Shown piece after piece: positions 7,105 to 61,971 of a stretch of 64,000 bases of DNA (position 1 is the first letter of the stretch; each line of letters begins with the position of its first letter). Below the pieces are notes generated by a model that was not told the DNA's origin, ran no database searches, and saw only the letters and a list, made by a program, of their open reading frames with translations. A program made the translations under genes and the position numbers. The stretch is from Burkholderiales bacterium (GTDB taxonomy: Bacteria > Pseudomonadota > Gammaproteobacteria > Burkholderiales > SG8-41). The DNA lies in NCBI GenBank assembly GCA_030683105.1, contig JAUXMZ010000056.1, positions 1-64,000 of the forward strand, in the 5' to 3' direction.

Positions 7105-7118
7105 GTTGCTGAAGATCT

Positions 7119-7327
7119 GAAAAGCGATGACACAGAGGACACAGAGGATAAAAATATAATAAAAACAACGCGGTGTGATTCTATGCATGAAGGACTGGGC
7201 TAAAGAACACCCGAACACTTCTTAGTACATTCCCTGTTTCGCACGGAGCACACTGAGGCCACCGAGTCTTATTGATATGAACTCTGATCTTCCTTCGTGT
7301 CCTCTGTGTCCTCTGTGTCTATGCTTT
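7119..7327. repeat. CACAGAGGA-type inverted-repeat element
   Basis: Left arm AAAAGCGATGACACAGAGGACACAGAGGAT; right arm TCCTCTGTGTCCTCTGTGTCTATGCTTT. Confidence 0.85.
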
Positions 7328-8183: not shown

Positions 8184-8400
8184 ACGCAGATAAATTCTTT
8201 TCAATACCCCCTTGAGGGGTACGCCGATAAGATCAAAAGCCGACACGACGATTAATATAATACAAACAATATGTTACGATTCTGCACGCGGGGATTGAGC
8301 TGCCGGGTGCCGGAACAGTTCTTCGTGCACACCCTGTTTCGCACGGAGGACACGGAGTTCACGGAGGATTCATTTCAATGCCCCCCCTCGAGGGGTACAC
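8172..8400. repeat. Composite palindromic repeat: GCCGATGAACGC arm and CACGGAGG arm around hairpin cores
   Basis: Cores at 8193-8222 and 8368-8398 (AATACCCCCTTGAGGGGTAC; AATGCCCCCCCTCGAGGGGTAC). Confidence 0.7.
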
Positions 8401-9464: not shown

Positions 9465-9646
9465 CCGCGTGTTCGAGAGGGGAGTACGGGGTCTAGCAAA
9501 GTAGCACGGATCACGTCGGCATACACTTCACGACGGTGGGGAGGATCGTGAGAGGGGCTGGAGGAATGCCATGATGCTAGACCTGAACACCCCATACACA
9601 GCGCTGTTACTTAGAGCGCATTTCAAAAAGACCAAGATCGATGTTA

Positions 9647-9868
9647 CCGCCGATAGATTCTTTTTAATACCCGCTCGACGGGTACGCCGATCAAACCAAC
9701 TCCGATGACTTTTGTTCCAGAGAACGTCAATAATAATTAATAATAACAATATGTTGTATGACGCCACTGCACCCTGTCGTATTTGGAGTTTTTAATGTGT
9801 ATCGGCGTACCCGTCGAGCGGGTATTAAAATGAATCTATCGGCGTTCATCGGCGGTTAATTTCTTTTA
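9647..9868. repeat. MITE-like inverted repeat with about 45-bp arms
   Basis: Left ACCGCCGATAGATTCTTTTTAATACCCGCTCGACGGGTACGCCGAT (9647-9693); right arm about 9801-9845 is its near-perfect inverse. Confidence 0.85.
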
Positions 9869-32374: not shown

Positions 32375-32749
32375 TTACTTTTTGGTATCGTCTTTCTTCA
32401 TTTCGGCTTTCTCTTTCGCCGGTTCTTTCTTCGCTGCTTTTGCTTCTTTGGCATCAGCTGCGGCTTTCGCTTTTGCTGCCTTCGCTTCGGCGGCGGCTTT
32501 CGCTTTCGCTTCTTTCGCATCAGCTGCGGCCTTCGCTTTTTCGGCCTTCGCATCAACGGCTACTTCCTTTTTTTCTGCTTTCGCGTCAACGGCTACTTTC
32601 GCTTTTTCTGCTTTCGCATCAACGGTAACTTTCGCTTTTTCTTCTTTCTTCACTTCGTCTTTTTTCGCGGCGTCAGCGGCAAAAACCGAAGCCGAACCCA
32701 GGCCAAACAGGACTACAACGAGAGCGGGGATTAATTTGTTCATTTTCAT
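32375..32749 (-). CDS. Exported Lys/Ala-rich protein with 11-residue repeats
   Basis: Signal peptide, then six 11-mers: KAKVTVDAKAE KAKVAVDAKAE KKEVAVDAKAE KAKAAADAKEA KAKAAAEAKAA KAKAAADAKEA. Confidence 0.8.
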   Translation of the reverse strand: MKMNKLIPALVVVLFGLGSASVFAADAAKKDEVKKEEKAKVTVDAKAEKAKVAVDAKAEKKEVAVDAKAEKAKAAADAKEAKAKAAAEAKAAKAKAAADAKEAKAAKKEPAKEKAEMKKDDTKK

Positions 32750-49428: not shown

Positions 49429-49438
49429 AGCCTAGGTC

Positions 49439-49652
49439 AAAAGCATAGACACAGAGGACACAGAGGACACAGAGGACACAGAGGACACAGAGGAAAAACG
49501 AAAATACTTAAACTTCAATATTCATAATAGTATTAGCAATCAATAAATAATCTCCGATAGTCTTGGAATGGTTTTTTGATATCGCTCTACTTCGTGTACC
49601 CGTCAAGCGGGTATTGAAAAGAATCCTCTGTGTCCTCTGTGTCTATGCTTTT
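49439..49652. repeat. CACAGAGGA-type inverted-repeat element with hairpin core
   Basis: AAAAGCATAGACACAGAGG(ACACAGAGG)n left arm; right arm GTACCCGTCAAGCGGGTATTGAAAAGAATCCTCTGTGTCCTCTGTGTCTATGCTTTT. Confidence 0.95.
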
Positions 49653-50515: not shown

Positions 50516-50527
50516 CTTAAAACCATT

Positions 50528-51112
50528 AAAGCATTGACACGGAGGACACAGAGGACACAGAGGAAAAACAATAATACCTATTCAAGACTGGAATGGGCGC
50601 CATCAGCCGTTGATAACTCGATTTATCCCTTCCCGCATATGCACGGAGTTGAAATTTAATAACAACCCAACCCTGTATCCGCCCAGTTTCAAGTACGTCA
50701 GCAGTTGAGCCCTGTGCAGCGGCAACAGTTTTTCCACAGCTTCGACTTCAACAACTATCTTGTCCTCTACCAGCAAATCCAGGCGATATCCGATATCGAG
50801 AACCACGTCCTCGTAGCGGACCGGCATCGGAATCTGTCTTTTGACGCACAGCTTTCTTTTTGAGAGCTCATGCTCAAGACAAGCTTCGTAGACATTCTCC
50901 AGCAATCCGGCACCCAGCACCGTATGGACCCTTAGCGCCGCATCGATAACGTGACCGCTTACCTTCACCTCATCCATATTCGCCCCATGTTCTTATCTCA
51001 AGTCTTTAACGCGCGGCTAATTCAATAGAGTACAGGGTGCTGATTATGCAGGTTCAATTCGATATGTTTTCCCTCTGTGTCCTCTGTGTCCTCTGTGTCT
51101 CCGCTTTTCACG
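50528..51112. repeat. CACAGAGGA-type inverted-repeat element enclosing a GxxExxY gene
   Basis: Left arm AAAGCATTGACACGGAGGACACAGAGGACACAGAGGAAAA; right arm CCTCTGTGTCCTCTGTGTCCTCTGTGTCTCCGCTTTT. Confidence 0.85.
50603..50977 (-). CDS. GxxExxY protein (PD-(D/E)XK-like fold)
   Basis: VIDAALRVHTVLGAGLLENVYEACLEHEL...GYRLDLLVEDKIVVEVEAVEKLLPLHRAQLLTYLKLGGYRVGLLLNFN. Confidence 0.93.
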   Translation of the reverse strand: MDEVKVSGHVIDAALRVHTVLGAGLLENVYEACLEHELSKRKLCVKRQIPMPVRYEDVVLDIGYRLDLLVEDKIVVEVEAVEKLLPLHRAQLLTYLKLGGYRVGLLLNFNSVHMREGINRVING

Positions 51113-54944: not shown

Positions 54945-54955
54945 TTAAATACTTT

Positions 54956-55155
54956 TTAAAAGCATAGACACAGAGGACGCAGAGGACGCAGAGGACGCAG
55001 AGGAAAATCAAAAGACTGATCAAATTTCAAAAATAATATTACAGTCGTCTAATGGTTCCGCGTATATAAGAAAGGGTTTGTTGATATTGTTCTACTTCGT
55101 GTACCCGTCAAGCGGGTATTGAAAAGAATCCTCTGTGTCCTCTGTGTCTATGCTT
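54956..55155. repeat. CACAGAGGA/CGCAGAGGA-type inverted-repeat element with hairpin core
   Basis: Left AAAGCATAGACACAGAGGACGCAGAGGACGCAGAGGACGCAGAGGA; right shares about 60 bp with 49590-49652. Confidence 0.95.
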
Positions 55156-55298
55156 TGGACTTATTTACGCCCTTATGAAATTTCGGGATATGAAGCAGGG
55201 CACTGGCAACGCGGCGGGATCGGGGTATCATATCTGTGAGCCACACCGCGTTGAGCAGCCCCGCCGCGGCTTGCAGGGCGCAATGATAGAGCCATCTC

Positions 55299-57041
55299 AT
55301 GAATAAGCCAACTCCAGACCCATCCGCCGCTGGATGGCAGGCCGGTTTCGAACAGTGGGCCGATCAGCTGGCCCGACTCAACCGGTCGGTAGACCCGTTT
55401 GGCATCGGTGCTTCGATGACCAAAGTCTCCCAGGGTTGGCTTACGCATCCCACGGAACTGGCGGTTGCGCTTGCCGATTTCACACGCGAACTCCAGAAAA
55501 TGCAGTTGGACGAGTGGCAGGCTGCGGCCGGCCTGCAAAAGCGGCCGCACAGCGCTGCCGCTGCCGACGATGAACGCTTTACCGACCCGGCGTGGTCCGA
55601 GGTGCCGGCGCTCTCCATCATCAAACAGTACTACCTGCTCTACACCCACTGGTCGCAGGAGGCGCTGTTCGAAACGCCAGGCGTGCCGCAAGAAGACAGA
55701 CGCCGCGCTACGTTCTGGGCGCGCCAGTGGCTGAACGCCGTGGCGCCGACAAATTTTTTTCTGACCAATCCCGTCGCCATCCGCAAGTTCTGGGAGTCCG
55801 GCGGCCAGAGCCTCACCGCCGGCCTCAAGCTGTGGCTGGAAGATATGCGCGCAGGCGATGTGCGCATGGTCGATGCCTCGGCGTTCAAGGTCGGCCAGAA
55901 TATCGCCACCACGCCGGGTTCGGTGGTCTATCGCAACGAACTGATCGAACTCATCCAGTACGCACCGGCGACCGCCGAAGTGCATACGGTGCCGCTGGTC
56001 ATCGTCCCGCCCTGGATCAACAAGTATTACATCCTCGATCTCAACGAAAAGAAAAGCCTGCTGCGCTACCTGGTCAGCCAGGGCTACACGGTGTTCGTCG
56101 TCAGCTGGAAGAACCCCACCGCGCTTCAGTCGGACACCACTTTCGACGACTACCTGATGACCGGGTTGCGGCAGGCGATCGAGGTTGCGCGCGGCATCTG
56201 CGGCACGCCCCACGTGCACGCGGCGGGCTACTGTATCGGCGGCACCGCGCTCGCGGCCATGATGGGGTGGTTCAATCGCGAGTTTCCCGACGCCGCGCAG
56301 GTTCCGGTGTCGCACTGGTCGCTGCTCACCACCCTGGTCGATTTCTCGCGCCCCGGTGGCATAGAAGTATTCATCGACGAGAAAACCATAGACACGCTGG
56401 AAGAGATGATGGCGCATCAGGGTTATCTCGACGGCAAGGACATGGGCCGCTCATTCCGCATGCTGCGTTCGAACAGCCTCATCTGGCATTATTTCGTGCA
56501 TAACTATCTTTATGGCGAAACGCCGCCGCCATTCGATGTGCTGTACTGGAACACCGACGTGACCCGCATGCCGCGTGCGATGCACAGCTTCTATCTGCGC
56601 GAGTTTTACCTCAACAACAAGCTCATCAAAAAGGATGCGCTGCAACTGGCCGGCCACCCCATCGATCTGGGCCGGATACGCCAGCCGCTTTATGCCGTGG
56701 GCTGCGAAGAAGACCACATCGCGCCGTGGAAAGCGGCGTTCAAGATCGCCGGCAGGATCAAGGCGCCGGTGCGCTATACGCTGTCGAGCTCGGGCCACAT
56801 CCTGGGCATCATCAATCCGCCGGTCCAGCCGCCCAAGCGCAGCTACTGGAGCGGCGCGACCAGCTCGGCCCCTCCTGAGGAATGGCTCAAAGGCCAGCAC
56901 CGGATAGAGGGCAGCTGGTGGGAAGATTGGTCAGCGTGGCTGGGCGGGCACTGCGGCGAGAAAGTCCCCGCGCGCACGCCCGGCAGCAGGGACTACCCTG
57001 TGCTGGGTCCCGCGCCCGGCAGTTATGTGCACGAGATCTAG
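55299..57041 (+). CDS. phaC: Class I poly(3-hydroxyalkanoate) polymerase
   Basis: LIQYAPATAEVHTVPLVIVPPWINKYYILDLNEKKSLLRYLVSQGYTVFVVSWKNP...VHAAGYCIGGTALA (GxCxGG). Confidence 0.97.
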   Translation: MNKPTPDPSAAGWQAGFEQWADQLARLNRSVDPFGIGASMTKVSQGWLTHPTELAVALADFTRELQKMQLDEWQAAAGLQKRPHSAAAADDERFTDPAWSEVPALSIIKQYYLLYTHWSQEALFETPGVPQEDRRRATFWARQWLNAVAPTNFFLTNPVAIRKFWESGGQSLTAGLKLWLEDMRAGDVRMVDASAFKVGQNIATTPGSVVYRNELIELIQYAPATAEVHTVPLVIVPPWINKYYILDLNEKKSLLRYLVSQGYTVFVVSWKNPTALQSDTTFDDYLMTGLRQAIEVARGICGTPHVHAAGYCIGGTALAAMMGWFNREFPDAAQVPVSHWSLLTTLVDFSRPGGIEVFIDEKTIDTLEEMMAHQGYLDGKDMGRSFRMLRSNSLIWHYFVHNYLYGETPPPFDVLYWNTDVTRMPRAMHSFYLREFYLNNKLIKKDALQLAGHPIDLGRIRQPLYAVGCEEDHIAPWKAAFKIAGRIKAPVRYTLSSSGHILGIINPPVQPPKRSYWSGATSSAPPEEWLKGQHRIEGSWWEDWSAWLGGHCGEKVPARTPGSRDYPVLGPAPGSYVHEI

Positions 57042-57048
57042 ACCAAAA

Positions 57049-57226
57049 AAACATCGACACAGAGGACACAGAGGACACAGAGGAATTCAAATACAATAAC
57101 AATAAAGATGTTATCAAGATGGCAAGCGGCAAGGTCTCAAATTTTTCTTGTTTTATTTTGCCTAATACTAAATGTATTTTCTTTGCTTTTCCTCTGTGTC
57201 CTCTGTGTCCTCTGTGTCTAAGCTTT
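57049..57226. repeat. CACAGAGGA-type inverted-repeat element
   Basis: AAAACATCGACACAGAGGACACAGAGGACACAGAGGAA ... TTCCTCTGTGTCCTCTGTGTCCTCTGTGTCTAAGCTTT. Confidence 0.95.
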
Positions 57227-59793: not shown

Positions 59794-59890
59794 CCACCCC
59801 TCAAGGGGGTGCTATACCGAGTCCCCCAGTGGAGAAGGGAAACAAATGCCTCCCCTCTCCCGCTTGCGGGAGAGGGGTCGGGGGAGAGGG
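59794..59890. repeat. Composite palindromic repeat (ACCCCTCAAGGGGGT hairpin plus CTCTCCCGCTTGCGGGAGAG)
   Basis: Second half closely resembles the repeat inside hrpA. Confidence 0.75.
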
Positions 59891-60705: not shown

Positions 60706-60746
60706 TTTGCTTCCTTGTTAAATTTCAATGCAAAGCTCCTAAAATC

Positions 60747-60918
60747 AAAAGCGGTGACACAGAGGACACGGAGGAAAAACTAGAATGAATAAAGAACTTC
60801 ACTAGCATGCACGCGCTGATATGGAATTCTTAGCCCATTCAGAACGCCGACAACTATTACTTGATCCTTATCTTCGTTCTTTCTCTGTGTCCTCTGTGTC
60901 CTCTGTGTCTATGCTTTT
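60747..60918. repeat. CACAGAGGA-type inverted-repeat element
   Basis: AAAAGCGGTGACACAGAGGACACGGAGGAAA ... TTTCTCTGTGTCCTCTGTGTCCTCTGTGTCTATGCTTTT. Confidence 0.9.
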
Positions 60919-61802: not shown

Positions 61803-61971
61803 AAAAGCGTAGACACGAAGGACACAAAGGAAAACCTTCAAGAATTAAAACCGAATAATATTGGGGAAGCCCATGATATTCAATATTCCGCAGGGGCAAA
61901 ATATTAATGAAGATATTTGTCCTTCCTTCGTGTCCTTTGTGTCCTTCGTGTCATTGCTTTTTCGTTCTTTT
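61803..61971. repeat. CACGAAGGA/CACAAAGGA-variant inverted-repeat element
   Basis: AAAAGCGTAGACACGAAGGACACAAAGGAAAA ... TCCTTCGTGTCCTTTGTGTCCTTCGTGTCATTGCTTTTT. Confidence 0.9.

Follow-up and report, generated by a model that had tools for sequence, protein, structure and literature searches.

Element copies and host repeats in the window

The window analysed here is a 64,000-nt stretch of a draft Burkholderiales genome (4.12 Mb in 78 contigs), in which a 27-nt hairpin element is found within short repeats. A caret in the sequences below marks a place of insertion. The element copies and the repeats that hold them are as follows.

8195-8221, minus strand: element of the C-G type, within an ATCGGCG/ATCTGCG array
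8369-8397, minus strand: divergent copy, lengthened to 29 nt by two additional G, lying in a CTCCGTG array (ACTCCGTG^..^TCCTCCGTGAACTCCGTG)
9640-9865: host repeat, ATCGGCG inverted-arm unit with one element per arm
9658-9684, minus strand: element, left arm of the unit 9640-9865
9808-9834, plus strand: element, right arm of the unit 9640-9865
49430-49651: host repeat, inverted-array unit; GACACAGAG arms at 49430-49503 and CCTCTGTGTC arm at 49624-49651
49597-49623, plus strand: element with the consensus sequence (CTTCGTG^..^TCCTCTGTG), right arm of the unit 49430-49651
54949-55156: host repeat, second inverted-array unit carrying the element; repeat families D1 and D2 are shared with 49430-49651
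55102-55128, plus strand: element with the consensus sequence, placed as in the 49597 copy, in the unit 54949-55156
59796-59810, plus strand: bare hairpin in which the tail TTGAAAAGAA is not conserved; excluded from the copy count

The original prediction had listed seven copies of a hairpin core, and direct reading of all seven places showed its coordinates to be correct within 1-2 nt. Six of these copies are genuine, while the seventh (at 59796) has the hairpin only. Five places in the window matched the search pattern, and 100 dinucleotide shuffles of the window gave no match. In the unit at 9640-9865, the two arms (9648-9691 and 9801-9844) are 98% complementary and hold an identical variant of the element, which makes it probable that the second arm arose as a copy of the first once the element had inserted. 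The unit holding the 55102 copy is 95% like 49567-49651.

Two further repeats of the window should be mentioned. A 57-nt direct repeat (81%; 7210-7266 and 8310-8366, D6) starts with CCCGAACACTTCTTAGTACAT and lies beside the arrays. The 33-bp coding-type tandem repeat at 32436-32666 (GCTTTTGCTGCCTTCGC..., D3) is probably the alanine/lysine-rich tail of a protein on the minus strand.

Hairpin structure and covariation

The core unit spans 27 nt, YACCCN-TCRAG-NGGGTATTGAAAAGAA, in which a 6-bp hairpin is followed by a 10-nt tail at the 3' side (element consensus [T/C]ACCC-N-TC(A/G)AG-N-GGGT(A/G)TTGAAAAGAA). The alignment of 75 distinct copies was gapless and read YACCCN TCRAG NGGGTRTT GAAAAGAA. 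As a DNA single strand, the element folds into a 6-bp stem, a 5-nt loop and a 10-nt free tail at -5.0 to -5.4 kcal/mol, and the folding z-scores of three copies were -4.25, -2.9 and -1.4.

Among the 75 distinct copies, the closing pair 6-12 was G-C in 36, C-G in 34, A-T in 2 and T-G in 1, with 2 unpaired; pair 1-17 was T-A in 42, C-G in 9 and T-G in 3, with 21 unpaired. The whole-helix covariation score was 0.238 versus 0.094 in shuffles, none of 500 reaching the real value, and a helix slid along the alignment scored at most 0.112 compared with the true register. The compensatory G:C to C:G swap in the stem, as originally claimed from a handful of copies, was thus borne out on 75 of them, and the stem changes are still compensatory in this larger alignment. 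Hence the compensatory change at the closing pair is real, and the hairpin is kept by it. Because related copies are counted repeatedly, the covariation stands for at least a few independent swaps and not for 37.

The element's first base and the base following it were associated in the own genome (T-T 47, C-G 19, T-G 6, C-T 3), which may indicate two subfamilies with different targets; this association was not seen in other genomes. Searching Rfam with the core returned nothing at gathering scores, and a match to CRISPR-DR53 (E 8.9) was dismissed as chance.

Copy number and placement in the genome

The genome contains at least 123-152 copies, with 152 matches at up to 3 mismatches and 123 at up to 2, and a reversed-pattern control gave zero matches over the whole genome. 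None of 398 other genomes sampled across the phylum had a copy at up to 2 mismatches. Chance is therefore excluded by the shuffles (0/100), the reversed control and these genomes (0/398) together. Only 17 of 87 copies lay inside ORFs of at least 200 aa, although such ORFs make up 77% of the sequence, which is a strong depletion. Copy orientation agreed with the local GC skew in 48 of 87 cases, the skew being a weak proxy in a draft genome. The element accounts for a large part of the intergenic repeats in carrier genomes.

A conserved hairpin so depleted from long ORFs might be a functional RNA or a protein-binding site (terminator, sRNA target, nucleoid site) that is kept by selection in ordinary regulatory copies. 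However, no T-run was found 3' of the hairpin, Rfam gave no gathering-score match, most relatives are without the element, and copies sit in decaying arrays and even in the element itself. Such a function was already unlikely and is the least probable of the explanations considered here.

Precise insertion into pre-existing repeats

Flanks of every well-kept copy in a 786-kb sample of the genome were listed, and the sequence on both sides of the core proved to be one repeat that continues beyond it. Filled repeats include CCTCTGTG^core^TCCTCTGTG, ATCGGCG^core^TTCATCGGCGG, CTTGGCG^core^GCCTTGGCGG, GTGGTTCG^core^TGCTTCGTGG and GTGACTGG^core^TGACTGG. The arms had been placed on one side of the core, the AAGAAT side, and assigned to two families. 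In fact they flank it on both sides, as in the ATCGGCG repeat above and in CTCCGTG^core^TCCTCCGTG, and many more families were seen, among them CTCTGTG, CTTCGTG, CTCCGTG, CTTGGCG, ATCGGCG, GGTTCG, GATTCG, GACTGG and AAATCG. The core does occur apart from any single arm family, both in many families and without arms. Its position may also differ inside one repeat unit (CTCTG^TG, CTCTGTG^T, T^CCTCC).

The boundaries were scanned over 81 left/right end combinations for 83 own-genome copies, the junction 20-mer being sought elsewhere. When 27 nt were removed at the proposed ends, this junction was present elsewhere for 28 of the 83 copies; a shift of both ends by +1, with the length still 27 nt, gave 16 further copies, and any other length at most one. 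The one-base ambiguity of the ends arises because most copies have T at both. Excision restored the tandem period in 42 of 61 non-nested copies (69%); the rate was 1.6% at random places and 14% at control places 40-80 nt from copies. In the own genome, 82 of 84 copies had G as the base 5' of the element and 79 had T or C before that G, and the base 3' of the element was T in 50 of the 84. The insertion is precise, occurs mostly between G and T and leaves no net target duplication.

Empty sites were found as well, the best case being in the Thiobacillus group. Among the copies of a dispersed repeat of about 55 nt that were fetched there from many genomes, eight were filled (GGATCGGAG^core^TCCTTTAGGG) and twelve empty (GGATCGGAGTCCTTTAGGG), and in two loci (L236, L244) a filled and an empty repeat are adjacent. 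As the position is constant, the filled Thiobacillus copies may stem from a single insertion, after which the repeat spread in its filled form. Within the own family, a genome of another genus (G005) has a gene block 93% identical to that of the own genome (G000), and the neighbouring GGTTCG array in G005 is without the nested pair seen in G000. The dispersed repeat itself, GCATACGATTCCACATGGGCTTTAGCCCATAGTGGATCGGAGTCCTTTAGGGC, is common across Thiobacillus and tandem in some genomes (L235-L254, L068, L109).

One could suppose that the core belongs permanently to the arm repeats, spreads with them by duplication or recombination and has no mobility of its own. Its position is often constant within a repeat family, as in the Thiobacillus repeat and in CCAAGGCACTTA^TCC of Desulforhopalus, and the window copies at 49597 and 55102 lie in 95% identical units; some copies have for this reason surely moved along with their host repeat. 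As a general account, however, this supposition is largely refuted and very improbable, in view of the many unrelated host repeats, the varying positions in one unit, the empty versions of identical repeats and the nested self-insertions described below. The element had originally been called modular and recombining: it is indeed modular, and mobile, but recombinational joining gives way to insertion of 27 nt into repeats that already existed.

Self-insertion and nests

The element also inserts into itself, its target within a resident copy being AAGCG^GG. Analysis of half-cores revealed 23 structures with extra halves, of which 12 were 2+2 (left plus right halves), one was 3+3 and ten were unequal. 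Left halves invariably came first and right halves after, the order that successive insertions at AAGCG^GG should produce. Where a 2+2 nest has the C-G closing variant, it is formed by the inner left and inner right halves: in five such nests C begins the inner left half and GGTG is read in the inner right half, while the outer right half has GGTA or AGTA. This matches the pairing of inner half with inner half, a pattern that plain tandem duplication would not yield. Since 10 of the 23 structures are unequal (e.g. two left and five right halves), slippage also acts on them. A larger autonomous element ended by half-cores was rejected, because every half-core was a nest, a slippage product or a weak isolated match.

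Host arrays and GxxExxY genes

Inverted short tandem arrays also occur around genes. The inverted-array unit at 50518-51107, which is without the element, encloses a GxxExxY gene at 50603-50977 (minus strand). All four GxxExxY genes of the genome (PF13366/TIGR04256; PDDEXK_3) lie between such arrays, and most of 19 GxxExxY loci from relatives are likewise bracketed, with array units that differ per locus (CTCTGTG, CTTTGCG, CTTGGCG, ATCGGCG, ATCTGCG, CCGTGTG; 50518-51107, L008-L010, L193-L211). Gene-free inverted-array units of 120-220 bp, with the same arms, are frequent in the window:

2428-2547: gene-free inverted-array unit
7111-7327: gene-free inverted-array unit
49430-49651: gene-free inverted-array unit, carrying the element
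54949-55156: gene-free inverted-array unit, carrying the element
57038-57226: gene-free inverted-array unit
60738-60917: gene-free inverted-array unit
61803-61960: gene-free inverted-array unit

Judged from its layout, a GxxExxY gene with its array ends looks like a mobile unit, and the gene-free units are likely miniature forms of it. Because the genes sit between inverted arrays and gene-free versions are so frequent in the window, the arms are probably the ends of a putative element that carries GxxExxY, and of its miniatures. The 27-nt element would then be a second, independent parasite of the arrays. A brief literature search found no paper on array-bracketed GxxExxY genes. GxxExxY was also considered as the partner of the core and rejected, as it was present in 10 of 12 carriers versus 14 of 24 non-carriers in the own family, giving no clear link. 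Many unrelated heptamer arrays (TGATTGG, CAACACT, GGTGAAG, TTGAACC, CATTACC; L011-L030, L142-L161) were observed in the own genome, and they recall the heptamer repeats of cyanobacteria.

Distribution in other genomes

Thirteen of 60 relatives, the own genome counted, carry matches; they belong mostly to the own family and one to another family of the order, with up to 69 copies in a single further relative (G013). As none of the 398 genomes sampled more widely carries the element, its distribution is patchy. In GTDB genomes, at least 103 stretches with the element were found, mostly in MAGs. The matches listed include Betaproteobacteria, Thiobacillus, Sulfuriferula, Gammaproteobacteria including Thioglobus, and Desulforhopalus and Desulfobulbaceae, which are Desulfobulbales of the phylum Thermodesulfobacteriota; the element thus extends outside the Betaproteobacteria to which the proposed search had been confined. 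Copies are near-identical among Beta- and Gammaproteobacteria and Desulfobulbales. Thiobacillus denitrificans RG is a carrier isolate. Misbinning is unlikely in Desulforhopalus, because tens of contigs carry the element, also head-to-tail, while the one contig from Acidobacteria (L125) is possibly a binning error; the name Bordetella parapertussis on L134 is a MAG label and was not counted as evidence. Plasmid and phage collections gave zero matches covering 80% of the query, and a viral collection gave one match in 2.9 million contigs. No relevant paper was found when the literature was searched by sequence string.

Proposed mechanism

The element is probably, at roughly 0.7, a non-autonomous mobile element that works like the SDRs of Nostoc, with an enzyme acting in trans. 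A single-stranded hairpin copy would be cut and then joined by that enzyme. Both the tandem arrays already present, which are usually intergenic, and the 3' stem of the element itself would offer the G^ site, so that insertions would accumulate and nest in arrays and in earlier copies, and slippage could later alter the number of half-units in the nests.

Y1/HUH transposases of the IS200/IS605 type use hairpins and insert 3' of a short motif without target duplication. For these reasons our favoured, though tentative, candidate for the enzyme is a single-strand Y1/HUH transposase of IS200/IS605/RAYT type. Of 20 further carrier genomes, 19 had Y1_Tnp genes, and six such genes were found in the own genome; Y1_Tnp was present in 46 of the 60 relatives, so it is frequent in non-carriers too. 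By a rough analysis, the Y1 proteins of carriers do not form one clade. The orientation bias that a lagging-strand mechanism might give was not detected (48/87, on a draft genome with skew as a weak proxy).

A REP sequence moved by its cognate RAYT would likewise be a short extragenic palindrome of high copy number in genomes with Y1_Tnp genes. The two large REP super-families are defined by a GTAG or CGTC tag (PMC3733652). However, neither tag stands by the hairpin in the alignment of copies, no Y1 gene is flanked by the core, and the insertion unit is single and not an inverted pair. A Y1_Tnp (RAYT) gene as flanked parent was rejected after about 35 loci, since the core lay at the ends of none and the nearest copy was about 0.7-0.8 kb off. 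REP membership is refuted by the missing tag and flanking gene, and this explanation as a whole is highly improbable, although a RAYT might act in trans.

Alternatively, a short hairpin RNA could be joined after a G to a transcript or to nicked DNA; reverse transcription and recombination would then bring it into the chromosome. In the Nostoc work, such an RNA route was reportedly the preferred one; it would account for the missing target duplication, the lax target and the lack of a detected skew bias, and a reverse-transcriptase domain occurs in the own genome and in 9 of 18 other carriers searched. Nevertheless, 9 of 19 carrier assemblies, MAGs being incomplete, have no reverse transcriptase, among them the cultured Thiobacillus denitrificans RG and a copy-rich Desulforhopalus MAG. 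A reverse transcriptase as universal partner was rejected, because it is missing from about half of the carrier assemblies, and we regard the RNA route as rather unlikely. The weight left by the transposase and the RNA route goes to some other mechanism.

Beyond the favoured Y1 transposase, it is a decidedly speculative idea that a hairpin of 27 nt, with no gene, travels inside genomes and from phylum to phylum via a widespread trans-acting machinery, which would also act on or build the short tandem arrays bracketing GxxExxY nuclease genes. If true, one system would make both arrays and nested hairpins, and it would be a class of mobile elements apart from transposons, introns and REPs.

Comparison with known systems

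The element shares with REPs and REPINs short extragenic palindromes, high copy number, a proposed single-strand mechanism and Y1 genes in the genomes. It differs from them in having no GTAG/CGTC tag and no flanked RAYT, in its exact 27-nt ends and its nesting, and in being a single unit, whereas a REPIN is an inverted doublet. Under the favoured reading, it resembles IS200/IS605 in its hairpin and in insertion 3' of a short motif with no target duplication, but it is gene-free and has a single hairpin, no known end pair and no strand bias detected. Like MITEs it is non-autonomous, intergenic and present in many copies, and the inverted-arm host arrays look MITE-like; yet it is without terminal inverted repeats or target duplication and is far below the 70-300 bp of bacterial MITEs. 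A CRISPR repeat was rejected, as the copies are dispersed, single or nested, and have no spacers.

The closest likeness is to SDRs, reportedly described by Elhai et al. in 2008 as 'very small mobile repeated elements' of Nostoc punctiforme, 21-27 nt long and in eight families. Several of these families are said to have a hairpin backed by compensatory changes, and SDRs are said to lie often inside tandem heptamers or minitransposons, with nested self-insertions, to be limited to one cyanobacterial subgroup, and to have led the authors to suggest RNA intermediates. The present element agrees in its 27 nt, its 123-152 dispersed copies and its compensatory hairpin, as well as in its place within short tandem repeats, its precise insertion, empty sites and nested self-insertion. 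It differs in that its carriers are Beta- and Gammaproteobacteria and Desulfobulbales, with no cyanobacterial host, in being almost identical between phyla, and in the link of its arrays to GxxExxY genes. As the SDR properties agree and REP membership fails, we file the element as a new family of the SDR kind in new phyla, likened by the reported properties of SDRs and not by sequence. To our knowledge, elements of such kind had been described only in cyanobacteria, and at 27 bases this is among the smallest mobile elements that we know of. The SDR report and its title, and the precise insertion of SDR5 in HIP1, are confirmed by later papers that cite it (PMC4390886, PMC3733652, PMC3116915).

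Since the Nostoc report, which had few clean cases, the copying of DNA units of 20-30 nt has been a standing question. The element offers exact boundaries, empty and filled sites, nests, well over 100 copies in one genome, and carriers in two phyla, one of them culturable. Comparison of carriers with close non-carriers, together with the isolate, gives a route to the enzyme.
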